This document shows, one piece after another, positions 1,635 to 12,807 of a stretch of 21,627 nucleotides of DNA. The position numbers and the translations under genes were made by a program. Position 1 is the first letter of the stretch. Every line of letters begins with the position of its first letter. The notes under the pieces were generated by a model. The model made no database searches and was not told the DNA's origin. It was given only the letters and a program-made list of their open reading frames with translations. Source of the stretch: a virus; the IMG/VR virus record IMGVR_UViG_3300044912_000450, positions 1-21,627 of that record; one strand, given 5' to 3'.

Positions 1635-4600
1635 ATGGCAACAGTAAGATTACAACTAAGAAGAGGCTTAGCAGACGATTGGAATGATGCAAATCCAACA
1701 TTAGCAGCTGGAGAAATTGGTATTGAAACAGATACTAACACTTTTAAATTTGGTGATGGAAACACTCCATGGAACAGCCTTGAATACGCCCTTTCAGGAA
1801 CTGTAGACGACTATATTCTACTAACTACAAAAGGAGCTGCAAACGGAGTCGCATCTCTTGACTCTTCTGGATTTATTCCAGCATCTCAGCTACCCCCACT
1901 TGCAAAGGTAACCGTTAGTGCAGTTGCTAATCAAGCAGCAAGACTTGCCCTTACAGCAGAAGCTGGAGATATTGCCATTCAGGCAGACAACGGAACAACA
2001 TATGTACTATCTTCTTCACCAGCAAGCACTAGTGGAAACTGGAGAGAAATTTCTGCAACAGCCGCAATTTCAGCTGCAGTAGCAGCTCACGAAGCAGATA
2101 CAACATCTGTTCACGGTATCGCAGACACAAGCCTTCTTGTAACAACCAATGGAACTCAAACACTTACAAATAAAACAATTACATCTCCTTCTGGTCTAGT
2201 TAAGTCAGACGTAGGTCTTGCAAATGTTGATAATACTTCAGATGAAAACAAGCCAGTCTCTATTGCAGCACTTGCAGCACTTGGCTTGAAAGCACCACTA
2301 GAGTCACCAGCTCTTACTGGAACTGCAACAGCAAACAACCTTACAATTTCTGGAAACTTGACCGTAAATGGAACAACATCTACAATTAACTCAACAACAC
2401 TCACAGTTCAAGATAAAGACATAGTTCTTGGACAAACATCATCTCCAACAGATGCTGGAGCTAACGGCGGCGGTATAGTTCTAAAAGGAACAACAGATAA
2501 ATCAATTACATACAGCGTTGCTAAAAATGCTTGGGAGTCATCAGAAAATATTAATATTCCTGGAGACAAATCAATTAAGATAAACAACATTGATGTACTA
2601 ACAATAAGCACAGTTTTAGGAAAGGCTCTTCCAGGAGTAGTTGTTGGAACAACTGAAACACAAACTCTTTCTGGAAAAACACTAAGCTCACCAGTTATTG
2701 ATTCACCATCATTTACTGGAAACATAAATCTTCCTTTGGGAACCACAATTGGAAATCTATCGTCTGAGGAGCTAGAACTTCTAAACGGAGTTACAGGAAA
2801 CGTACAGACTCAGATCAATGCTAAGGCACCATCTGAATCTCCTACATTCACAGGAACAGTAGTTTTACCTTCAACTACAAGCATTGGAAACCTTTCTTCT
2901 GCAGAGCTAGAACTTCTAAACGGAGTTACAGGAAACGTACAGACTCAGATCGATGCTAAGGCACCATCTGCTTCTCCTACATTCACAGGAACAGTAGTTC
3001 TTCCTTCAACTACAACTATCGGAAATCTATCGTCTGAAGAGCTAGAACTTCTAAACGGAGTTACAGGAAACGTACAGACTCAGATCGATGCTAAGGCACC
3101 ATCTGCTTCTCCTACATTCACAGGAACAGTAGTTTTACCTTCAACTACAACTATCGGAAATATTTCTTCCCAGGAGCTAGATCTTCTAAACGGAGTTACA
3201 GCAAATGTACAGACTCAGATCGATGCTAAGGCACCATCTGAATCTCCTACATTCACAGGAACAGTAACATTGCCAAGCACAACATCAATAGGAAACCTTA
3301 CTTCAACAGAGTTGGGGTACCTTGATGGAATTACATCTTCTGTGCAAACACAGATTGGCGCAGCAGCGACAGCACTTTCAAATCACGAAGCAGATACAAC
3401 AAATATTCACGGTATTGCAGACACTTCACTGCTAGCAACTACAACAAATGTTGCAACAGCTAAATCAGAAGCAATTTCCGCAGCTGGAACAGCAGCAGAC
3501 ACAAAGGTGTCAACTGCAGTAGCAGCACTTACAAAGTCTTCAGTGGGGCTTGCAAATGTTGACAACACATCAGATGCAAATAAGCCAGTTTCAACCGCTA
3601 CTCAAACAGAGCTTGATTTAAAGGCTCCAAAAGCTTCACCAACATTTACTGGCACAGTAGTTCTTCCAGCAGTAACAGCAGGTGGAAGTATAGTTCCTAC
3701 AACAGATAATACATTTGACTTAGGTTCTCCTACAAAAATGTGGAAAGATATCTATGTAGGTCCAGGATCTCTATATGTTAACGGACAAAAGGTTCTTCAG
3801 GATGAATCAGGAGCAATCGTTGTTTCTGCTGACATTAACGAAAATCTAGGATTAAGAACAAGCGGAAGCGGTAATATTGAGTTTGATCCAACAGGAACTG
3901 GCGTTGTTAACATCAAGGGACCTCTTGTTATGGAAGCAGGCGCAAATATTTCAAGTGCTGACGGAAATGGAATCAACTTCTCTAATACAGTACAGGTTGA
4001 CTCTATTGCTAGCAAGAGCGCAAACACAGACTTGTCATTATCTGGAAATGGAACAGGAAAAGTTTACCTTAATGATAATGCAGAAGTAAATGGAAACCTT
4101 GTTGTAGGCGGAAACTTGACAGTAAGCGGAACAACAACAACTGTTAACAGCGAAACAATTAGTTTAGCTGATAACATTATTGATTTAAATAGCAATTTTA
4201 CTACTGGAACTCCTACAGAAAATGCAGGAATAAGAGTAGTTCGTGGAGACTCTAATGCAGTTCAGGTACGTTGGAACGAAGCCACTGATAAGTGGGAATT
4301 TACAACTAACGGATCAGATTATTTTGTAATAGCTCCAACTGACTCACCAACATTTACTGGTACAGTAAACGGAATTACAAAGTCTATGGTAGGCCTTGCA
4401 AATGTTGATAATACATCAGATGCAAGCAAGCCAGTCTCAACAGCACAGCAAACAGCACTTGATTTGAAGCTAGCTTCTGCTACAGCTGCATCAACTTATG
4501 CTCCAATAGCTAGCCCAACATTTACTGGTACAGTAACAGTTGCAGCAGCAGGAGTAGCATTTACAGATGGAACACAGACAAAACAAGGAGTTCCTTCTCT

Positions 4601-4913
4601 AACAGTAATTGGAACTGAAATTTCAGCAGATTATAACCTTTCAACAGGTGGACTTGCTTTAAGAGATCAGTTGATTCCAGTAGCAGGAACACGAGCAATT
4701 ACAGTGCCAACAAATGCAACAACAGCATTCCCAGTTGGAACTTCAATAAGCTTCTACCAAGCATCTGGAACTGGAGCTAACTTTGTAGCAGCAGATATCA
4801 CAGTTACAATTTTACGCACACCAGGATTAAAGCTAAGAACAACACACTCATCAGCAACACTTACCAAGGTAGCAACAAATACTTGGTTGCTAGCTGGAGA
4901 CTTGACTGCATAA
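1635..4913 (+). CDS. Large repeat-containing tail fibre protein with Mtd-like N-terminus, 1092 aa
   Basis: Residues 1-55 (RLQLRRG..., LAAGEIGIETDT, FKFGDGNTPWNSL) match the N-terminal pattern of major-tropism-determinant / phage fibre head-binding domains. The shaft is made of recurring modules: GLANVDNTSD(E/A)(N/S)KPVS three to four times, NG(N)LTVNGTT...DKDIVLG-type beta modules at about 235-260 and 820-850, and five tandem 45-residue repeats at residues 357-581. EADTT(S/N)-HGIADTSLL occurs twice. The last 80 residues (PVAGTRAITVPTNATTAFPVGTSISFY onward) form a beta-rich tip similar to many phage fibre ends. The start is supported by AAGGGG 7 nt upstream. It probably trimerises and carries host-binding function. 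The gene is intact. Confidence 0.85.
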   Translation: MATVRLQLRRGLADDWNDANPTLAAGEIGIETDTNTFKFGDGNTPWNSLEYALSGTVDDYILLTTKGAANGVASLDSSGFIPASQLPPLAKVTVSAVANQAARLALTAEAGDIAIQADNGTTYVLSSSPASTSGNWREISATAAISAAVAAHEADTTSVHGIADTSLLVTTNGTQTLTNKTITSPSGLVKSDVGLANVDNTSDENKPVSIAALAALGLKAPLESPALTGTATANNLTISGNLTVNGTTSTINSTTLTVQDKDIVLGQTSSPTDAGANGGGIVLKGTTDKSITYSVAKNAWESSENINIPGDKSIKINNIDVLTISTVLGKALPGVVVGTTETQTLSGKTLSSPVIDSPSFTGNINLPLGTTIGNLSSEELELLNGVTGNVQTQINAKAPSESPTFTGTVVLPSTTSIGNLSSAELELLNGVTGNVQTQIDAKAPSASPTFTGTVVLPSTTTIGNLSSEELELLNGVTGNVQTQIDAKAPSASPTFTGTVVLPSTTTIGNISSQELDLLNGVTANVQTQIDAKAPSESPTFTGTVTLPSTTSIGNLTSTELGYLDGITSSVQTQIGAAATALSNHEADTTNIHGIADTSLLATTTNVATAKSEAISAAGTAADTKVSTAVAALTKSSVGLANVDNTSDANKPVSTATQTELDLKAPKASPTFTGTVVLPAVTAGGSIVPTTDNTFDLGSPTKMWKDIYVGPGSLYVNGQKVLQDESGAIVVSADINENLGLRTSGSGNIEFDPTGTGVVNIKGPLVMEAGANISSADGNGINFSNTVQVDSIASKSANTDLSLSGNGTGKVYLNDNAEVNGNLVVGGNLTVSGTTTTVNSETISLADNIIDLNSNFTTGTPTENAGIRVVRGDSNAVQVRWNEATDKWEFTTNGSDYFVIAPTDSPTFTGTVNGITKSMVGLANVDNTSDASKPVSTAQQTALDLKLASATAASTYAPIASPTFTGTVTVAAAGVAFTDGTQTKQGVPSLTVIGTEISADYNLSTGGLALRDQLIPVAGTRAITVPTNATTAFPVGTSISFYQASGTGANFVAADITVTILRTPGLKLRTTHSSATLTKVATNTWLLAGDLTA
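2703..3377 (+). repeat. Five tandem 135-bp (45-aa) repeats in the fibre shaft
   Basis: The motif GAGCTAG of (S)EELELLNGVT recurs with its GCTAG at 2771, 2906, 3041 and 3176 and in diverged form at 3311, an exact 135-bp period. Each unit has SPTFTGT, LPSTT-IGNLSS, ELELLNGVTGNVQTQIDAKAP. Units 2 and 3 are almost identical in DNA. Unit 5 is diverged (ELGYLDGITSSVQTQI), as expected of an older edge copy. Confidence 0.95.
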
Positions 4914-4939
4914 TAAACATAATGGATAGGGGTTAAAAA

Positions 4940-5968
4940 ATGGCAAATAAAAGAATTGGTACGAGGTCATCAGCACAGGATAATTTCCTGGAGCCAAACA
5001 AGCCAATAATTGACAGCGTAACAGACGTTGGAACAGATAGGCCGTATGATAATGGTGCCGTAACAGTAGTATTTTCTTTGCCAGCAGGTTCCCCTCCAGC
5101 AACATCTTATAATATAACAGCAAGTACTGGACAAACAGGAACAGGATCTTCCTCTCCAATTGTTATAACAGGATTTGCATCTGGTGCAACTCCAACATTT
5201 ACAATGACAGCCTCAAACGCTGCAGGAACTTCCCTTGTTTCAGATGCTAAAGGCCCAGTTCCAGTCACAACAGTTCCACAAGCACCTCAATCTGCTTCAG
5301 CAACAGCTGGTGTAAATCAAAATACAATTAACTGGCAACTAGGAGCAAACGGAGGCAAGCCGTTAACACGGCACAATGTTACTGGATCCGATGGATCAGC
5401 TTCTGGAAACCTAGCTGGAAGTGCAACATCAACAGTAATAGCTGATACAGCAAATACTTCACAGACATACTCTGTTATAGCAAGAAATGACAACGGTCCT
5501 TCTTTGCCTTCAAATAGCACTGCAAGCGTTATGACTCTACCACCGTTCTTCCCATTCTTCCCACCGTTCTTCCCACCGTTCTTCCCGTTCTTCCCACCGT
5601 TCTTCCCGTTCTTCCCACCATTCTTCCCACCATTCTTCCCACCATTCTTCCCACCGTTCTTCCCATTCTTCCCACCGTTCTTCCCACCGTTCTTCCCACC
5701 GTTCTTCCCACCGTTCTTCCCATTCTTCCCACCGTTCTTCCCGCCGTTCTTCCCACCGTTCTTCCCACCGTTCTTCCCATTCTTCCCACCGTTCTTCCCA
5801 TTCTTCCCACCGTTCTTCCCTCCAAGCTTTGGACCTTATTTCCCAGGATTTAAGGCACCATTCTTCCCAGGATTCGGACCTTCGTTCCCATTCTTCCCAG
5901 GATTTGGACCGTTCTTCCCAGGATTTGGACCTTCATTCCCATCATTCGGTGGATGGGGAGCTTACTAA
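4940..5968 (+). CDS. Fibronectin-III-like protein with a C-terminal Pro/Phe (PPFF) repeat tail, 342 aa
   Basis: Residues 1-20 are a short polar leader. Residues about 22-112 and 113-199 look like two fibronectin type III / Ig-like beta domains (TSYNITASTG, FTMTASNAAG, then INWQLGANGG and YSVIARNDNGPS). Residues 201-293 consist only of Pro and Phe (18 PPFF and 7 PFF units). Residues 294-342 continue as a Gly/Pro/Phe-rich end with FPGFGP repeats and the terminus GGWGAY. The ATG has AGGGG about 9 nt upstream. There is no signal peptide. FnIII/Ig domains are common surface decorations of phage tails, so a virion-surface or adhesin role is inferred. The gene is the last before the hydroxylase cassette. 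I do not know a named family for the PPFF tail. Confidence 0.75.
   Translation: MANKRIGTRSSAQDNFLEPNKPIIDSVTDVGTDRPYDNGAVTVVFSLPAGSPPATSYNITASTGQTGTGSSSPIVITGFASGATPTFTMTASNAAGTSLVSDAKGPVPVTTVPQAPQSASATAGVNQNTINWQLGANGGKPLTRHNVTGSDGSASGNLAGSATSTVIADTANTSQTYSVIARNDNGPSLPSNSTASVMTLPPFFPFFPPFFPPFFPFFPPFFPFFPPFFPPFFPPFFPPFFPFFPPFFPPFFPPFFPPFFPFFPPFFPPFFPPFFPPFFPFFPPFFPFFPPFFPPSFGPYFPGFKAPFFPGFGPSFPFFPGFGPFFPGFGPSFPSFGGWGAY
5540..5818 (+). repeat. Pro/Phe-only coding repeat (PPFF/PFF units)
   Basis: Ninety-three codons are all Pro or Phe. The basic DNA unit is CCACCGTTCTTC (12 bp), with a 9-bp variant CCATTCTTC. Three consecutive 57-bp super-units (4+4+4+4+3 residues) occupy 5615-5785. Phe is always TTC. 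The coding strand is nearly all pyrimidine, with only two purines per 12 bp, so the tract should be prone to slippage. Confidence 0.97.
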
Positions 5969-6014
5969 TCAATTATAAATTGATGATTATAAATACTTTT
6001 CTTTTCTAGAAAAG
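5968..6014. other. Two palindromes in the 79-bp gap between the fibre and oxygenase cassettes
   Basis: ATCAATT-ATA-AATTGAT (5968-5984) starts at the stop codon of the fibre gene. CTTTTCTAGAAAAG (6001-6014) is a perfect 14-bp palindrome. Either could be a weak transcription-end hairpin or a binding site. Neither has a proper T-run after it. Confidence 0.5.
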
Positions 6015-6016
6015 TG

Positions 6017-6025
6017 TGATAAGAT
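6017..6025 (+). promoter_or_regulatory. Possible extended -10 promoter before the oxygenase cassette
   Basis: TGATAAGAT fits TGn-TANNNT and lies directly after the 6001-6014 palindrome. The predicted start is near 6032, leaving a leader of about 16 nt with a weak AAGAG ribosome-binding site. No clear -35 is visible. Confidence 0.35.
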
Positions 6026-6047
6026 TGCATAGTCGAAAAGAGAAAAA

Positions 6048-6752
6048 ATGGAATGGTACGACCTGCCAAGAATTGAAAAAACAAATTCAAGACTTGATTC
6101 AATAGTAATTAATGAAAATATTGAAGTCCAGAATATTGATTATGGAATCAACCTATATAGAAACGCTATAAGCGAAGAAGACTGCAAAAAAATAATTGAC
6201 CTTTTAGAAGAAGAGATATCTTTGGGCAAAAGAGGTATTGCCTGGCATGGTGCAACAGTCAACGGAGAAAAAAGAACTTCTCATGCTAGAAATTGCTATG
6301 ATCTAAAATTTAAGAGAGATCATGTTGGCAAATATATAGGAGACAGCGAAGCTTTAAAGGAATGTTATGATTTAGTTGATGTTGGACTAAACAAGTCATT
6401 AAGGCATTACGAGTCTATTTGGAATTTTAATATTAACTATAAAGAAGCATTTAACTTTGTTAAGTATTTGCCAGGAGAGTTTTTTAAGATCCACGCAGAC
6501 CATGGTCCATATTATACATGCACTGTATCTGCAGTTGTTTATCTTAACGACGATTACGAAGGCGGAGAAATTGAATTCCCAAGGCATAACTTTAAGCTAA
6601 AGCCAAAAGCTGGGGACATAATCCTATTCCCATCAAACTTTGTTTATGAGCATGCATCTTTAAATATAACATCTGGACAAAAATATTCTGTTGTTGTTAT
6701 GATGGATTATAATGATCTTTATCACAAAGATGAGGAAGGCCAAAAGTATTAA
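6048..6752 (+). CDS. 2-oxoglutarate/Fe(II) oxygenase 1 (prolyl-4-hydroxylase-like), 234 aa
   Basis: It belongs to the double-stranded beta-helix dioxygenases that hydroxylate a substrate while converting 2-oxoglutarate and O2 to succinate and CO2. Visible iron ligands are H149-A-D151 (FKIHADHG) and the distal H202 (FVYEHAS). The 2-oxoglutarate-binding basic residue is K212, ten residues after the distal His, as in collagen prolyl 4-hydroxylase. The family box VVYLNDDYEGGEIEF is at 163-177 and KPKAGDIILFPS at 185-196. The N-terminal 35 residues are family-unspecific. No signal peptide is present, so it acts in the host cytoplasm. It is the first gene of the cassette and is most similar to oxygenase 2. 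The substrate is unknown; Pro in a virion protein is one candidate. Confidence 0.88.
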   Translation: MEWYDLPRIEKTNSRLDSIVINENIEVQNIDYGINLYRNAISEEDCKKIIDLLEEEISLGKRGIAWHGATVNGEKRTSHARNCYDLKFKRDHVGKYIGDSEALKECYDLVDVGLNKSLRHYESIWNFNINYKEAFNFVKYLPGEFFKIHADHGPYYTCTVSAVVYLNDDYEGGEIEFPRHNFKLKPKAGDIILFPSNFVYEHASLNITSGQKYSVVVMMDYNDLYHKDEEGQKY

Positions 6753-7509
6753 AATACTATTTCAATCTTTTAGGCCATGGCTAAATAAGTTCAGCCCATC
6801 TTTACCAAAACCAACACAAAATTCAATTCCAGACTGGTACAAAGAGGCAGACAGGTTTGCAAAAATGCCAAATGGAGAATACTATAAGGCAACAAAAGAA
6901 ATTTGTCCAGTTCCAAGAGAAGGAACAACAAATGATTATGGTAAAATTCCAACATGGAAAGCTTGTCCAGCTATACTCGATGCTTTTATGACAGGATATG
7001 TATTAAGCACACCATGTGATTTAGAATTTAAAAAAGATAAAAATGGAAAGATTACAGTTGATATAAAAGACAAAAAGCATACTGGATTTGTTACAGCAAG
7101 AACTCCAATGGATCAGTTTCCATCTCCAATTGGATATTATGATGAGCACTTTGCTTGGTATCCAGAATGGGGAATCCAGGTTCCAGAAGGCTACAGCGCA
7201 TTGTTTATGACACCGATGAACAGATTTGATCTTCCATTTTTAAACACTAGTGGTGTTGTTGATAATGACAAGGTTCACCTTTTGGGAACATTCCCATTTT
7301 TTATTGCAAAAGATTGGGAGGGGACAGTTCCAAAGGGAACCCCTTTTCTTCAAGTTCTTCCATTTAAAAGAGAAGACTGGGAGCATAATGTTGAATATTT
7401 AAGTATAAAAGAAATGCAAGAAAGATTAATTGAGAATGCAAAATTTTACCGTCAGCCTGATGGTGGAGTTTATAAATCAAAAGTTTGGATAAAGAGGGAT
7501 TACAAATGA
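6730..7509 (+). CDS. DUF6065-like protein 1, about 259 aa, function unknown
   Basis: I chose the ATG at 6730 (MRKAKSIKILFQ). An in-frame ATG at 6712 would add six residues and deepen the overlap with oxygenase 1. No strong ribosome-binding site decides it. Motifs: PTQNSIPDWYKE near the N-terminus, a Cys-containing CPAILDAFMTGYVLSTP segment, then SALFMTPMNRFDLPF and VPKGTPFLQVLPFKREDW. The same order of segments occurs in the second such gene at 8215-8928, so the two are homologous. I associate this pattern with phage proteins called DUF6065, but only from memory of the pattern. It is sandwiched between oxygenases with translational overlaps, so a linked role (partner or substrate binding) is inferred. 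No catalytic motif is recognisable. Confidence 0.6.
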   Translation: MRKAKSIKILFQSFRPWLNKFSPSLPKPTQNSIPDWYKEADRFAKMPNGEYYKATKEICPVPREGTTNDYGKIPTWKACPAILDAFMTGYVLSTPCDLEFKKDKNGKITVDIKDKKHTGFVTARTPMDQFPSPIGYYDEHFAWYPEWGIQVPEGYSALFMTPMNRFDLPFLNTSGVVDNDKVHLLGTFPFFIAKDWEGTVPKGTPFLQVLPFKREDWEHNVEYLSIKEMQERLIENAKFYRQPDGGVYKSKVWIKRDYK

Positions 7510-8234
7510 CAACAGAATCTAAAAGCACAGCTCCAACATGGAGTAGCAAAGAGGTCTTAGCGCCAGGTATTATCGTTTACAGAGATGTGATTAAAAAAGA
7601 ACTCGATGTAATCAATAGACTTGAAAGCAATCTAGGATCAGTAGCTGAATATGGATCATTGTCACCTGAAGGCAAAAGATATCACTGGATGCCAGCATAT
7701 GTTGGATACCAGCAGTTAATACCAGACTACAGAGATTGTGTAGATTTTAAATTCAAAAAAACAGATATTAATAAAGATACAAGCGAAGAGTCTTTAAAGC
7801 TACAAGCACTATGGCAAGATGTTTATGATGCACAGTATCCAGCAGTTGTTGATTACTGTAAAGCACATAATTTGATGGAGCTGAAGTATTGGGAAGCATT
7901 TAATTTTATCAAGTATGGAGAAAACCAGCATTTTATGGAGCACCAAGATCACGGATACTCATACAATTGCGTAGTGTCTCTTGTAGCATATATTAACGAT
8001 GACTATGATAACGGAGAGCTTTATTTTAGACTTCAGGATTTAAACATTAAGCCAAAAGCTGGAGACCTATATGTTTTCCCATCTAACTTTATGTATGCTC
8101 ATCAAGCTAAGCCAGTTACAAATGGAATAAAGTATTCTATTGTTACAATGCTTGACTATAGCAAAAAGTTTCATACTCCAGACATGTACGATCCAAAGTG
8201 GGATAACGAAGTAAATGAAAATAACAGTCTATAA
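7506..8234 (+). CDS. 2-oxoglutarate/Fe(II) oxygenase 2 (prolyl-4-hydroxylase-like), 242 aa
   Basis: The start is the ATG at 7506, which overlaps the TGA of the previous gene (ATGA) and has AGAGGG about 8 nt upstream. A TTG at 7485 is possible but less likely. Iron ligands are H146-Q-D148 (FMEHQDHG) and H199 (FMYAHQ). The 2-oxoglutarate residue is K209, again Lys at +10. It shares with oxygenase 1 the segments YxEAFNF(V/I)KY, Y(L/I)NDDY, IKPKAGD and FPSNF(V/M)Y, so the two are tandem paralogues. Between HxD and the distal His the spacing is like oxygenase 1. The C-terminal 20 residues are charged and variable. The substrate is unknown. Confidence 0.88.
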   Translation: MTTESKSTAPTWSSKEVLAPGIIVYRDVIKKELDVINRLESNLGSVAEYGSLSPEGKRYHWMPAYVGYQQLIPDYRDCVDFKFKKTDINKDTSEESLKLQALWQDVYDAQYPAVVDYCKAHNLMELKYWEAFNFIKYGENQHFMEHQDHGYSYNCVVSLVAYINDDYDNGELYFRLQDLNIKPKAGDLYVFPSNFMYAHQAKPVTNGIKYSIVTMLDYSKKFHTPDMYDPKWDNEVNENNSL

Positions 8235-8928
8235 AAATAGCGCAACTCCTTCAAAAATTGAACAAACTAAAGTTAAAAGAGAATGGATGGATGAAACAGT
8301 AAATGCTCATGCATATAAATGTTTCCCAGTATCTTTAGCAAATACAATTGGCTGGTCTATTTCCTTTGATCACGATATAGAGTTTATTTGGGACGGTATA
8401 TCTGATACCACTCCAGATCATGTAACTATATTAAAAGATGCAGGAAAAGTATGCACAACTCAAAGAGCAAATGCTACTGTTAGCTTTTACTCTGGATTTT
8501 TCTTTGAGTCAGATGAAAACATGTCTATGCTTCAAATAGTTCCACCAAATTTCTTTGTAGATGGAGCGACACCATTTACAACAATAATATCAACTTCTGT
8601 TTTAAAGGAAGCCATTCCAATTGCATGGAAAATAACAAGACCAAATGCAGTAATAAAGATACCAGCAGGAATGCCAGTAGCAACATTTATTCCAATATCT
8701 TTAAAGCAGTACCAGGATATAGACCTAGAAATTAAAGACAAGGTCTTCGTGGATGATCAAAAAATGAAGGCGGAAAGATTAAAGGTTTGGGAAGAGATTT
8801 CTAAAAGAGGCGAGTTTACTAATTTCTATAGAGATGCTGTAGAATATGATGGTACAAGCCTAGGAAAGCATGAGTTGAAGTCTTTAAAATTAAAGATTAC
8901 AGATCTTACTTCCAAAAACAAGAAATGA
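8215..8928 (+). CDS. DUF6065-like protein 2, 237 aa, function unknown
   Basis: The ATG at 8215 overlaps the end of oxygenase 2 by 20 bp. The central segment HAYKCFPVSLANTIGWSISF and the following EFIWDGISD fit the DUF6065 pattern I know from phage genomes. Later come MLQIVPPNFFVDG and KIPAGMPVATFIPIS, equivalent to the matching parts of the 6730-7509 protein. The C-terminus has a lysine-rich helix with FTNFYRDAVEYDG. There is no signal peptide, transmembrane segment or catalytic motif. With oxygenase 2 it forms the second copy of an oxygenase/DUF6065-like pair. Its TGA (8926-8928) forms part of the promoter for the next gene. Confidence 0.65.
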   Translation: MKITVYKNSATPSKIEQTKVKREWMDETVNAHAYKCFPVSLANTIGWSISFDHDIEFIWDGISDTTPDHVTILKDAGKVCTTQRANATVSFYSGFFFESDENMSMLQIVPPNFFVDGATPFTTIISTSVLKEAIPIAWKITRPNAVIKIPAGMPVATFIPISLKQYQDIDLEIKDKVFVDDQKMKAERLKVWEEISKRGEFTNFYRDAVEYDGTSLGKHELKSLKLKITDLTSKNKK

Positions 8929-8940: not shown

Positions 8941-9672
8941 ATGAATCAAACAAATCAGGACGCTACAGTAGTCTATAAAACTCCATCCCTTACGCCTTCA
9001 GGCTTCTTTGGGACAAGCAAAGACATGATTGTTGAGCTTGAAAACTTCATGACTCAAGATGAGATGGATTTTCTTGAGGCAGCTGCTAGAAAAATTACTA
9101 TATGGGATGTAACGGAAAGCCATGTTAATGAAAACGGTACAACCGTATACGATGCTAACTACTGGAAAGACAGAGTTTGCACTAGCCCATCTTTAGATAA
9201 AAATGACCCAGAAATTAGACCAGTGCTCCAAGGTTTATTTGAAAGACTAAAGCCAATTGTTGAAGATTTTTATAAGGTTAAAGTAACGCCCACTGGAACA
9301 ACGATTGTAAGATGGCTTCCTGGGCAATTTCAAAAACCTCATGCAGACAAAGAGCTTCATGAGCTTCCAGACATTGGAATGCCAAATGATTTTCCTTATT
9401 ATGATTTATCAAGCTTATTTTATTTAAACGATGACTACGAAGGCGGAGAGCTTTACTTCCCGCTACAAGATGTTCAGTTTAAACCAAAGAAAGGCGCAGC
9501 TTACTTTTTCCCAGGCGACATGAACTACATTCATGGAGTAACAGAAATCAAGGGTGCTATTAGATATACGTGTCCTTTCTTTTGGGAAATTCTAGAGCAT
9601 ACTGGAGAAAATCAACCAGATCCAAATAAAAAATATTATAGAACACTTATAGATGGGGAAGTAAATAAATGA
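8941..9672 (+). CDS. 2-oxoglutarate/Fe(II) oxygenase 3 (prolyl-4-hydroxylase-like), 243 aa
   Basis: Iron ligands are H134-A-D136 (QKPHADKE) and H198 (NYIHGV). The 2-oxoglutarate residue is R208 (AIRYT), ten residues on, the more usual Arg form. The family box LFYLNDDYEGGELYFP is at 159-174, followed by FKPKKGAAYFFPGD. An N-terminal helix DEMDFLEAAARKI follows an ELENFMTQ entry motif typical of the fold. The insert between HxD and the box (HELPDIGMPNDFPYYDL) probably shapes the substrate pocket. It starts directly at a predicted leaderless promoter and its stop overlaps the next start (ATGA), so it heads a sub-operon of oxygenases 3-6. The substrate is unknown. Confidence 0.88.
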   Translation: MNQTNQDATVVYKTPSLTPSGFFGTSKDMIVELENFMTQDEMDFLEAAARKITIWDVTESHVNENGTTVYDANYWKDRVCTSPSLDKNDPEIRPVLQGLFERLKPIVEDFYKVKVTPTGTTIVRWLPGQFQKPHADKELHELPDIGMPNDFPYYDLSSLFYLNDDYEGGELYFPLQDVQFKPKKGAAYFFPGDMNYIHGVTEIKGAIRYTCPFFWEILEHTGENQPDPNKKYYRTLIDGEVNK

Positions 9673-10412
9673 GCACTTCAAATCGATTGACTTCAGACAT
9701 TCTAGTTTTTAAAGATTTTTTGACAAAAGAAGAATCAAAAAAGATTATAGATGTTTTAGAAGCACAGGTGGCAAATGAAAAACTATCTTGGACACCTATC
9801 ACATTTTACGAATCATACTCTTCAGTGCTTCCGCAAGACGGAGACGAAGAGCTAGAAGAGTTTGGATTGCCATCAGATTTTTTTTCAACACTTCAAAATA
9901 AAATTATTGATGCAGTGGCAGAAGTGCATGGAAACTCTTCTTCCGATATACACAAGATTGGGTTTCACGCTCAAAAGTGGGAGCCAGGAGCATTTGCAAA
10001 AGAGCACTCAGACAACACAGATTTGCAGGGAAACTCTGGTCCATTTGAAAGAAGTAGATACGCAGCCTTCTTATATTTGAATGATGAGTTTGAGGGCGGT
10101 CAGTTAATATTTAACAAGCAAAACCATACACTTGTCCCAGAGACTGGAACGCTAGCAGCTTTTGCAGGAGGCTTTGATAATACTCATGAGGTTACAATGA
10201 TAACTTCTGGAGTAAGATACACCCTAGGATCATTTTGGGATAATAGGCCCCCAGAGTCGTATTCTCAAGAAACGATAGATGCTTGGGATGCAGAAATGAA
10301 AAAGATTAGAGAAGAGCAAGAGGTAATAAAATCAGAATGGCAAAATCACTTAAAAGATGGATATAAAATAGATCTAGATGGAAACTTATACGCAATAGAG
10401 GAGAAAAAATAA
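9669..10412 (+). CDS. 2-oxoglutarate/Fe(II) oxygenase 4 (prolyl-4-hydroxylase-like), 247 aa
   Basis: The ATG overlaps the stop of oxygenase 3 (ATGA) and is preceded by GATGGGGAAG. Iron ligands are H113-S-D115 (AKEHSDNTD) and H173 (DNTHEV), with R183 (SGVRYTLGSFW) for 2-oxoglutarate. The entry motif DILVFKDFLTKEE is at residues 10-22. The box AFLYLNDEFEGGQLIF is the most diverged of the six. After the fold comes a charged C-terminal helix (residues about 200-247) not present in the others, possibly a dimer or partner contact. The final TAATG junction joins the next gene. The substrate is unknown. Confidence 0.87.
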   Translation: MSTSNRLTSDILVFKDFLTKEESKKIIDVLEAQVANEKLSWTPITFYESYSSVLPQDGDEELEEFGLPSDFFSTLQNKIIDAVAEVHGNSSSDIHKIGFHAQKWEPGAFAKEHSDNTDLQGNSGPFERSRYAAFLYLNDEFEGGQLIFNKQNHTLVPETGTLAAFAGGFDNTHEVTMITSGVRYTLGSFWDNRPPESYSQETIDAWDAEMKKIREEQEVIKSEWQNHLKDGYKIDLDGNLYAIEEKK

Positions 10413-11170
10413 TGAAACTAGAACAAAAACTACATGAAAATGTTTACATGTACTCAGATGTAATTGAGAATCCACAAGCAATTATTGATTTAATTAATAA
10501 GCTAGATTCTGATGAAAGAGTTCACAAGGTTATTCCAAGCTGGAAAAACTGGAATTCAAGCAGTAGAGATGGTAACATCTTCGGAAAGAAAAAAGACTTT
10601 AATCTTTCTGAGGTAGAAAATTTAGATGAAGACATAAGAAAAGATGTAGACTTTATTATATCAACAATTAGAAATGCTATTAAAAATATATCAGAATCTT
10701 TTATTGTTGATAGAGGTCTTAAGGGAGTACCAAACGTATCACCGTTTGTCGGTATCCAAAAATATATTGAAGGTTGTGCAATGGGCGCACACTTTGATAG
10801 ACAGGCTGGAGACAACAGCTTGGAATGGTCAATTATTATTTATTGGAATGATAACTACGAAGGCGGAGAGATATCATTTGTTATCAGACCAGAAGATCTG
10901 AGATTAGAAATGAATGGTCATCTTAGACCACCAGATGATGCGCTAGATCCAAGAACAAAAGACATGGTTACATTTACTGCAAAGCCAAAGGCTGGAAGCG
11001 CATTGATATTCCCGTCTACAGATCCATACAAGCACCAAGTTCATATAATGAAATCAGGAGAGAAGTTTATTACTCCTGGATTTATATTTGTTGACGGTTA
11101 TGTTGTTGGAGGTCCAGGCGGACCATCAGAAGAATACATCAAGGCCTATCACGAACAAAACCAGGAATGA
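10412..11170 (+). CDS. 2-oxoglutarate/Fe(II) oxygenase 5 (prolyl-4-hydroxylase-like), 252 aa
   Basis: The start overlaps the previous stop by one base and has a good AGAGGAG about 8 nt upstream. Iron ligands are H127-F-D129 (MGAHFDRQ) and H208 (PYKHQV). The 2-oxoglutarate residue is K218, Lys at +10 as in oxygenases 1 and 2. The box IIYWNDNYEGGEISF is at 142-156. A 30-residue insert (about 158-189, including HLRPPDDALDPRTKD) lies between the box and KPKAGSALIFPS, longer than in the other five. A Gly-rich end (VVGGPGGPSEEY) follows. The substrate is unknown. Confidence 0.86.
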   Translation: MKLEQKLHENVYMYSDVIENPQAIIDLINKLDSDERVHKVIPSWKNWNSSSRDGNIFGKKKDFNLSEVENLDEDIRKDVDFIISTIRNAIKNISESFIVDRGLKGVPNVSPFVGIQKYIEGCAMGAHFDRQAGDNSLEWSIIIYWNDNYEGGEISFVIRPEDLRLEMNGHLRPPDDALDPRTKDMVTFTAKPKAGSALIFPSTDPYKHQVHIMKSGEKFITPGFIFVDGYVVGGPGGPSEEYIKAYHEQNQE

Positions 11171-11178
11171 TTTAATCC

Positions 11179-11766
11179 TTGTCAGACTATAAAATTGTAA
11201 GGTTATCTGATCAAGTTTATGAAATACAAAATTTTATAACACAAGATGAGCTTGATCAGGTAATGCAGTTTATAGAATTAAGAAACGAATCTGACTGGTA
11301 CGGAGAAGATGTACAGTATGAATTTTGGGACACCAAGGTTTTAAATAGAAAATTTATTTATCCAGATAGCAAGATTTTAGACTTTCATTCTAGAATCTCT
11401 AATTTGTTTTCTGGAAATCATGATGTTACTGGAATAAACTTACAAAGATACAAGATAAATGAATTCCTTGGTCTTCACACTGATGATCATGAGGGTCACA
11501 GGCTGTCTAATCAAAAGGTGTTTTATGGTGCTGTTCTTTATTATAATGATAATTATGATGGAGGAGAAGTGGAGTATCCTGAGTTAGGAATAGTACATAA
11601 GCCAAAAAGTAGATCATTGCTTATACATGGCGGTAAAGTCTTACACGGAACAAAGCCAGTTAAAAATGATGTAACTAGATACATATCATCAGTATTTATT
11701 AAACATCATATTGATGATAGCATATCATTGAATAAAGAAATTTTTGGAGAATATCATGGAGTATAA
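11179..11766 (+). CDS. 2-oxoglutarate/Fe(II) oxygenase 6, 195 aa
   Basis: This is the shortest of the six. The frame has no ATG near its 5' end. TTG at 11179 gives MSDYKIVRLSDQVYEIQNF, which aligns with the N-termini of the others, so TTG is taken as the start (ribosome-binding site weak). Iron ligands are H100-T-D102 (LGLHTDDHEG) and H156 (VLHGTKP), with R167 at +11. The box VLYYNDNYDGGEVEYP is at 119-134, then HKPKSRSLLIHGG. The spacing +11 and the missing upstream helix make it the most divergent copy. It overlaps the methyltransferase gene by 11 bp. Confidence 0.83.
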   Translation: MSDYKIVRLSDQVYEIQNFITQDELDQVMQFIELRNESDWYGEDVQYEFWDTKVLNRKFIYPDSKILDFHSRISNLFSGNHDVTGINLQRYKINEFLGLHTDDHEGHRLSNQKVFYGAVLYYNDNYDGGEVEYPELGIVHKPKSRSLLIHGGKVLHGTKPVKNDVTRYISSVFIKHHIDDSISLNKEIFGEYHGV

Positions 11767-12343
11767 GGGAAATAGTGGACAAGAAAGATTTGTTACTGAG
11801 CTTCTTAAAAATAAAGAAAATGGTTTTTATGTTGAGCTTGGAGCGTTTGACTCTAAAAAAGGAAGCAACACGTATCATCTAGAAACAGATTACAATTGGA
11901 ATGGGGTATCTTTTGAGATAGATCCAGAAAGACATGCAGAGTTTGTATCAAACAGAAAGAACCCTTGTATATTAGGAGACGCTACACACTTTAACTATAT
12001 ATCTTACTTTGAAGAAAACAACTTTCCAAAACAAATAGATTATCTTCAAGTTGATATAGATGCTGGCTACACCCCAGAAGGAAATTCTGTTGGAAATCCA
12101 TATTTAACACTACATGGATTAATAGCAGTGCCTCTTAGCAAATATAGATTTTCAATAATTACCTTTGAGCATGACTCGCAAATTGAGTACAATAATAAGG
12201 GAATGAGGGAAGCCCAAAGAGAAATTTTATCATCTCTTGGATACAAGCTTGTAGTTAGAGATTGGCATGAAGATTGGTGGGTAGATCCATATGCTATACC
12301 GTATTTGGATTTTAGAGAAAAATTTAAGATGGCGTGGACATAA
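11756..12343 (+). CDS. FkbM-type SAM-dependent methyltransferase, 195 aa
   Basis: It is a class I methyltransferase. Motif I is FYVELGAFD (residues 24-32), followed by SNTYHLE and an acidic SFEIDP after strand 2. GDAT (74-77) and YLQVDIDAG (96-104) fit the FkbM family layout, and IITFEHD closes the core. FkbM enzymes O-methylate hydroxyls, mostly of sugars or polyketides. I chose the ATG at 11756 with GGAGA 5-6 nt upstream. A TTG at 11744 would add four residues. It sits at the end of the oxygenase run, so it could methylate a hydroxyl made by a hydroxylase or a host glycan. That link is inference. Confidence 0.75.
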   Translation: MEYKGNSGQERFVTELLKNKENGFYVELGAFDSKKGSNTYHLETDYNWNGVSFEIDPERHAEFVSNRKNPCILGDATHFNYISYFEENNFPKQIDYLQVDIDAGYTPEGNSVGNPYLTLHGLIAVPLSKYRFSIITFEHDSQIEYNNKGMREAQREILSSLGYKLVVRDWHEDWWVDPYAIPYLDFREKFKMAWT

Positions 12344-12807
12344 TGAGTGGACAACTAAAGCAAGAGCATCATGATGTAGTTAAAGAGTATGTTGATTCAG
12401 TTAATGAAAAAAGAAGCGACGCTTACATGCTTACAATTGCAAGGGATGGGGAAGAGCCAGCAAGATCAATTATATTTTTCCCAAATGCGATTGAGGCAGC
12501 AGAAGCATATAACATGTACAATGACTGGGGTTTTGCAAAGCAATACCTTACAGTAAGATTATATGAGCCTACAGGAAAAGTAAATGAAAAGGTGTTTAAG
12601 AGAAATCAGGCGGGGGACCCAACATTTCTTAGAACAAACTATATAGATGTTACAGAAACCTTATTGGGTCTAAAGCCTTTAATTTCAGATCAGGCATACG
12701 AAAATACCTGCATGGAAATAATGACCTCATTTGCCAAAGATAACTGGAGATTTGACCCAGAAAGATTCCTCTTAAATTTGGGTATTAAAAAAAAGCTAGA
12801 CTGCTAA
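12343..12807 (+). CDS. Conserved-looking protein of unknown function, 154 aa
   Basis: The start is the ATG of a TAATG junction with the methyltransferase. GTG at 12334 is an alternative. The N-terminus is charged, then come a beta/alpha stretch (AYMLTIARDG, SIIFFPNAIEAAEAYNMYNDWGFAKQ), TVRLYEPTGKVNEKVFKR and an end with NWRFDPERFLLNLG. It contains no membrane segment and no motif of a family I can name. It is the last gene before a predicted leaderless promoter, so it closes the cassette. A role in the modification pathway or a separate phage function are both open. Confidence 0.75.
   Translation: MSGQLKQEHHDVVKEYVDSVNEKRSDAYMLTIARDGEEPARSIIFFPNAIEAAEAYNMYNDWGFAKQYLTVRLYEPTGKVNEKVFKRNQAGDPTFLRTNYIDVTETLLGLKPLISDQAYENTCMEIMTSFAKDNWRFDPERFLLNLGIKKKLDC

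Follow-up and report, generated by a model that had tools for sequence, protein, structure and literature searches.

The tandem arrangement of two oxygenase genes and two DUF6065-like genes, Oxy1-DufA-Oxy2-DufB, very probably arose by piecewise assembly and shuffling and not by the copying of a two-gene unit, as judged from gene order and phylogeny. The four genes are located at positions 6048 to 8928 of the analysed window, which spans the entire 21,627-base record of an uncultured phage. For the locus as a whole, we lean towards a piecewise-assembled operon which would serve to hydroxylate a virion protein, with accessory proteins of dUTPase-like fold. The established part of this reading consists of the gene order, the phylogeny, the fold predictions, the conserved residues and the linkage to a repeat protein. 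The locus also illustrates that an A-B-A-B gene order can form without duplication of an A-B unit, and a tempting inference is thereby corrected.

The window contains, in order, tail genes, a repeat protein, six 2OG-Fe(II) oxygenases together with two DUF6065-like genes, a lectin-like protein, the portal, a protease and head genes. Oxy1 (6048-6752), DufA (6712-7509), Oxy2 (7506-8234, with an alternative ORF start TTG at 7485) and DufB (8215-8928) lie in tandem on the plus strand, each overlapping or abutting the next, which confirmed the twofold occurrence of an oxygenase/DUF6065-like pair described in a sequence-only reading of this DNA. Directly 3' of DufB, Oxy3 (8941-9672), Oxy4 (9669-10412), Oxy5 (10412-11170) and Oxy6 (11179-11766) were identified, also on the plus strand, so that the tandem pairs belong to a run of six oxygenases. 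A gene on the same strand at 11744-12343 weakly resembles FkbM methyltransferases, at a sub-threshold level (PF05050, E=0.094). Since no gap in the series from DufB through Oxy3 to Oxy6 and this FkbM-like gene exceeds 12 bases, the cassette was read as one operon. The four-gene set was found again in many divergent phage contigs, and its occurrence is therefore not due to chance. At 12334-12807 the window codes for a 157-residue protein without a Pfam or PHROG match; in other phages, its relatives occupy the place between DufB and Oxy3 or follow DufA.

For Oxy1 and Oxy2, the earlier reading had proposed a paralogous relationship, and this was borne out. The two proteins share 37% identity over 205 residues (E=8e-39), and both match the Pfam family 2OG-FeII_Oxy_3 (6.6e-12 and 3.1e-12, respectively). 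In the oxygenase tree, a clade with a support of 96/95 unites Oxy1 and Oxy2 with the oxygenases which D-type phages carry as a single copy, separate from Oxy3 to Oxy6 and from the cyanophage and pelagiphage enzymes. Within this clade, Oxy1 alone forms a clade (98/96), while the D-type oxygenases are joined weakly to Oxy2 (80/49); a clade of Oxy1 and Oxy2 without the D-type enzymes was not rejected (p-AU 0.39). By these sequence comparisons, Oxy1 and Oxy2 are true paralogues.

A different relationship was identified for the two DUF proteins. DufB is a member of the Pfam family DUF6065 (PF19541; 1.5e-32, 113.4 bits compared to a gathering cut-off of 26.6) and shares the invariant positions of the family (W, C-x-P, G-W, N and G-x-P), whereas DufA, for which Pfam gave no hit, lies below the detection of this model, with no match at E-values up to 1. 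A BLASTP comparison of DufA with DufB gave zero signal. Both proteins match phrog_7084 (1.3e-35 for DufA and 2.4e-5 for DufB), and the profile-profile comparison aligned them with 97.3% probability (E=2e-11, 15% identity), which confirms the segment order said to be common to both. On the sequence level, DufA and DufB thus belong to one superfamily which is detectable by profiles only. In the DUF tree, DufA groups with proteins of the haloarchaeal viruses HF2 and HSTV-2, and DufB with proteins of D-type phages and bacterial DUF6065 members, a split with a support of 100/100. An exclusive clade of cassette DufA and DufB was rejected, at a cost of 110 log-likelihood units and with a p-AU of 7e-7. 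Among isolate phages no match to DufB was identified, with bacterial or D-type DUF6065 queries giving none either, and in the isolate collection DufA matches were obtained in haloviruses only. The DufA relatives are hypothetical proteins of the Hafunaviridae HF2 and HSTV-2, for which this is a new, remote annotation (loci L186, 13857-14741, and L187, 11848-12717).

Taken together, the oxygenase tree and the DUF tree indicate that the oxygenase was duplicated and that the two DUF genes are not products of that event. The claim that a two-gene unit had been duplicated is thus contradicted by DufA and DufB lying in different deep branches; the separation into distinct clades with different neighbours, which would speak against the duplication, was obtained for the DUF proteins, but not for the oxygenases. 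The DUF pair is, as had been noted, more diverged than the oxygenase pair, with mean identities within the same phage of 17.6% for DufA-DufB compared to 38.8% for Oxy1-Oxy2 across 23 phages. Between orthologues in the same 23 phages, the identities are similar, with 56% for Oxy1, 61% for Oxy2, 58% for DufA and 46% for DufB; combined with the unequal paralogue identities, this suggests that the split of the DUF proteins most likely predates that of the oxygenases. In the proposed course of events, an oxygenase located beside a DufB-type gene would have been duplicated to yield Oxy1 and Oxy2, and DufA, an anciently separate member of the superfamily, would have joined independently, at a position which differs among phages.

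The gene orders identified in IMG/VR relatives include oxy1-dufA-oxy2-dufB, oxy1-oxy2-dufB-dufA and oxy2-dufA-oxy1-dufB, in addition to a single oxygenase with one dufB. The gene located 5' of DufA was Oxy1 in 46 of 87 non-redundant cases, DufB in 25 and Oxy2 in four, with other genes making up the rest, while DufB was preceded by Oxy2 (99) or a D-type relative (10) in 109 of 124 non-redundant cases; these counts include loci retrieved by Oxy1 or DUF queries, and the shares are descriptive. A functional partnership between each oxygenase and its DUF had been suggested. A functional set of oxygenases and DUF proteins is supported, and in these phages the DUF genes are linked to oxygenase genes; fixed one-to-one partners are not supported for DufA, with its varying neighbours, and a lasting pairing is supported for Oxy2-DufB only. 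In one single contig, an in-frame fusion of DufB with Oxy3, and not with Oxy2, was identified (L110, 4769-6016).

The opposing explanation, in which an oxygenase-DUF unit was duplicated, the DUFs diverged faster and rearrangement came later, would account for the oxy-duf-oxy-duf order in the window and for the sister relationship of Oxy1 and Oxy2, and the single oxy-dufB pairs of D-type phages could then represent the state before duplication. However, it is quite improbable given the rejection of a DufA-DufB clade (p=7e-7) and the existence of other gene orders, and DufA orthologues have diverged no faster than those of Oxy1 (57.8 vs 56.3% identity), yet the DUF paralogues are far more distant. 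A variant with a very old unit duplication, from the halves of which the bacterial and haloviral genes would descend, is formally possible.

For the DUF proteins, AlphaFold models were obtained with a pLDDT of 89 for DufA and 86 for DufB. In Foldseek searches of the PDB with the DufB model, the best 50 matches were all dUTPases, with E-values from 2e-4 and a probability of 1.00 for nearly all of them; for the DufA model, dUTPases and dCTP deaminases were retrieved with E-values from 2.6e-3 and low TM-scores. Comparison of the DUF profiles with dUTPases by hhalign gave a probability below 2%, and the Pfam search of DufA and DufB gave no match to the dUTPase family PF00692. Because both the profile support and the PF00692 match are absent, the fold is called dUTPase-like and not dUTPase. 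DufA and DufB are thus predicted to adopt a dUTPase-like (beta-clip) fold, which offers a structural lead for the uncharacterised DUF6065 family; no mention of DUF6065 was found in the literature search.

In a single alignment, nearly all DUF groups share positions with W, C, G and N. An acidic pair differs among them: it is D/D in DufA (D184 and D186 in the window) and the haloviral proteins, E/D in bacterial DUF6065 members, and S/S in 94-97% of cassette DufB proteins, including that of the window. On account of this difference, DufA and DufB are probably not interchangeable. Of the five dUTPase motifs, a motif III-like stretch in DufA was the only one recognised: where motif III of dUTPases reads G-x-I-D-x-D-Y, DufA has G-[VI]-[VI]-D-x-D. 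The tyrosine of motif III and motif V were not found. DufA may have retained a putative ligand site, whereas DufB, with this site lost, would serve as an adaptor whose most stable partner is Oxy2. Both would be accessory proteins and are probably oligomeric, but an accessory or adaptor role as such is a doubtful proposal.

The six oxygenases are similar to peptidyl prolyl hydroxylases. Oxy1 to Oxy5 score above the cut-off for PF13640 and Oxy6 slightly below it (26.3 compared to 27). All six enzymes possess the HxD motif and the distal H without exception, their 2-oxoglutarate position is occupied by K or R, and HxD...H...K is intact in Oxy1 and Oxy2 of the window and kept in 23 of 23 Oxy1 and 23 of 23 Oxy2 proteins from 23 phages, with K in 46 of 46. 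In profile comparisons, the best relatives of known structure were Bacillus prolyl 4-hydroxylases (5hv0/5iax), prolyl 3-hydroxylase 1 and the prolyl 4-hydroxylase 5c5t, followed by PKHD hydroxylases and lysyl hydroxylases, with Tet enzymes near the bottom of the list. The similarity to the prolyl 4-hydroxylases ranges from 4e-12, reached with the Bacillus enzymes, to 6e-8, and the ligands for Fe and 2-oxoglutarate are intact in the cassette enzymes. The entry 5c5t is the enzyme which we take to be the prolyl 4-hydroxylase of chlorella virus PBCV-1. The cassette differs from these prolyl 4-hydroxylases in that a single operon carries six divergent enzymes together with DUF partners. For chlorella virus, 4-hydroxyproline in viral proteins and a viral prolyl 4-hydroxylase have been described (Eriksson 1999, in the words quoted by PMC9301287).

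Immediately 5' of the cassette, at 4940-5968 on the plus strand, a protein is encoded in which Ig/FN3-like repeats were recognised by eye, followed by a C-terminal tract of 142 residues from residue 201 with 65 Phe and 56 Pro, mostly in PPFF/PFF units. FN3 was called by Pfam in orthologues of this repeat protein, but not in the copy of the window. Some relatives end in a Hint/intein-like domain (sub-threshold in Pfam; C-terminal parts of L148 and L153, and L060), which suggests self-processing. A BLAST search for the repeat protein in isolate phages gave no match, with low complexity masked, which makes this a weak negative.

To this repeat protein the oxygenases are closely linked. Loci retrieved by the repeat DNA pattern alone numbered at least 80. 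Among the matches listed, 32 of 40 non-redundant loci carried an oxygenase in the 4 kb downstream of the repeat tract, compared to none of 23 for the 4 kb upstream of it (Fisher p=8e-11), and 130 of 135 downstream oxygenases lie on the same strand as the repeat protein. In the reverse check, a repeat protein was identified upstream in 24 of 24 non-redundant loci fetched with DufA, in 6 of 6 fetched with DufB and in 34 of 43 fetched with Oxy1. This linkage supports the repeat protein as a substrate. We infer hydroxylation, its substrate and any physical contact between the proteins: the oxygenases would modify a virion protein, for which the Pro/Phe-repeat protein is the most likely candidate, and its hydroxylation is a possibility that we hold slightly short of probable. 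As a broader and more tentative proposal, a widespread group of uncultured phages may carry a hydroxylation line of its own, consisting of up to six prolyl-hydroxylase-like enzymes and dUTPase-fold adaptors which would act on Pro, and perhaps Phe, of a (PPFF)n tail-region fibre. If true, phages would possess a counterpart to structural proteins rich in hydroxyproline. Among the genes of aquatic phages to which no use has been assigned, those for 2OG-Fe(II) oxygenases rank with the most common, and the conserved cassette, with its oxygenases just downstream of a Pro/Phe-repeat protein, offers a concrete candidate substrate that can be tested.

The cassette sits at the end of the tail region, where accessory genes gather, and proximity need not imply a substrate. 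The genes might instead be cargo of an accessory island at the end of the tail module, active in surface or small-molecule chemistry and unrelated to the repeat protein. In one locus (L200), other modifying enzymes are found at comparable positions, namely a sulfotransferase, an APS-kinase-like gene and an Asp/Asn beta-hydroxylase, and in a related contig (L217, 3-2654) the repeat protein is followed directly by lectin-like and structural genes, with no cassette adjoining it there. In another phage lineage (L195 and L197), repeats were also present with no cassette alongside. The linkage is, however, very tight in both directions and is kept across divergent phages and several gene orders, which renders a cargo island unlikely. 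Still less likely is a reading in which nucleotides or DNA bases are the targets of the oxygenases and of the dUTPase-fold proteins, for example, in pyrimidine hydroxylation, where the DUFs would bind the nucleotide or trim it. Peptidyl prolyl and lysyl hydroxylases are the best solved relatives with Tet far down, and the linkage of the cassette is to a repeat protein of the tail region and not to replication genes, even though the predicted DUF fold resembles dUTPases and dCTP deaminases, weak Tet_JBP matches were obtained in Pfam for Oxy6 (7.8e-4) and Oxy3, and haloviral DufA relatives are located near thymidylate synthase (HSTV-2) or beside ribonucleotide reductase (HF2).

The oxygenases and the DUF6065 member belong to known families; literature searches on phage tail hydroxylation gave nothing on this cassette. 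2OG-Fe(II) oxygenases are common in T4-like cyanophages, where their role was left open and DNA repair was mentioned as possible (PMC3037559). The cyanophage and pelagiphage enzymes (phrog_61) belong to the same superfamily as the cassette enzymes, with 25-31% identity, and of five that were fetched, three have replication genes or unannotated genes as neighbours and the other two lie close to tail genes. In the stretches fetched for the haloviral DufA relatives no oxygenase was identified nearby, and none was detected near bacterial DUF6065 genes in the loci examined. In Sinorhizobium, an autotransporter gene ends 10 bp before the DUF6065 gene, and in Niveispirillum the DUF6065 gene is followed after about 350 bp by the gene for a giant repeat protein (L331, 6412-9693; L333, 8989-18706). 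A scan of genome contigs led to two planctomycetes; their neighbouring genes are without any pattern, and a common neighbour pattern for bacterial DUF6065 was therefore dropped. In L200 and L211, a repeat protein is followed downstream by two DufA-like genes, and an oxygenase is present in the region. The L200 locus (3902-8698), which has the sulfotransferase, the Asp/Asn beta-hydroxylase and the APS-kinase-like gene among the neighbours, would fit a protein-modification island, in which hydroxylation followed by sulfation is possible.
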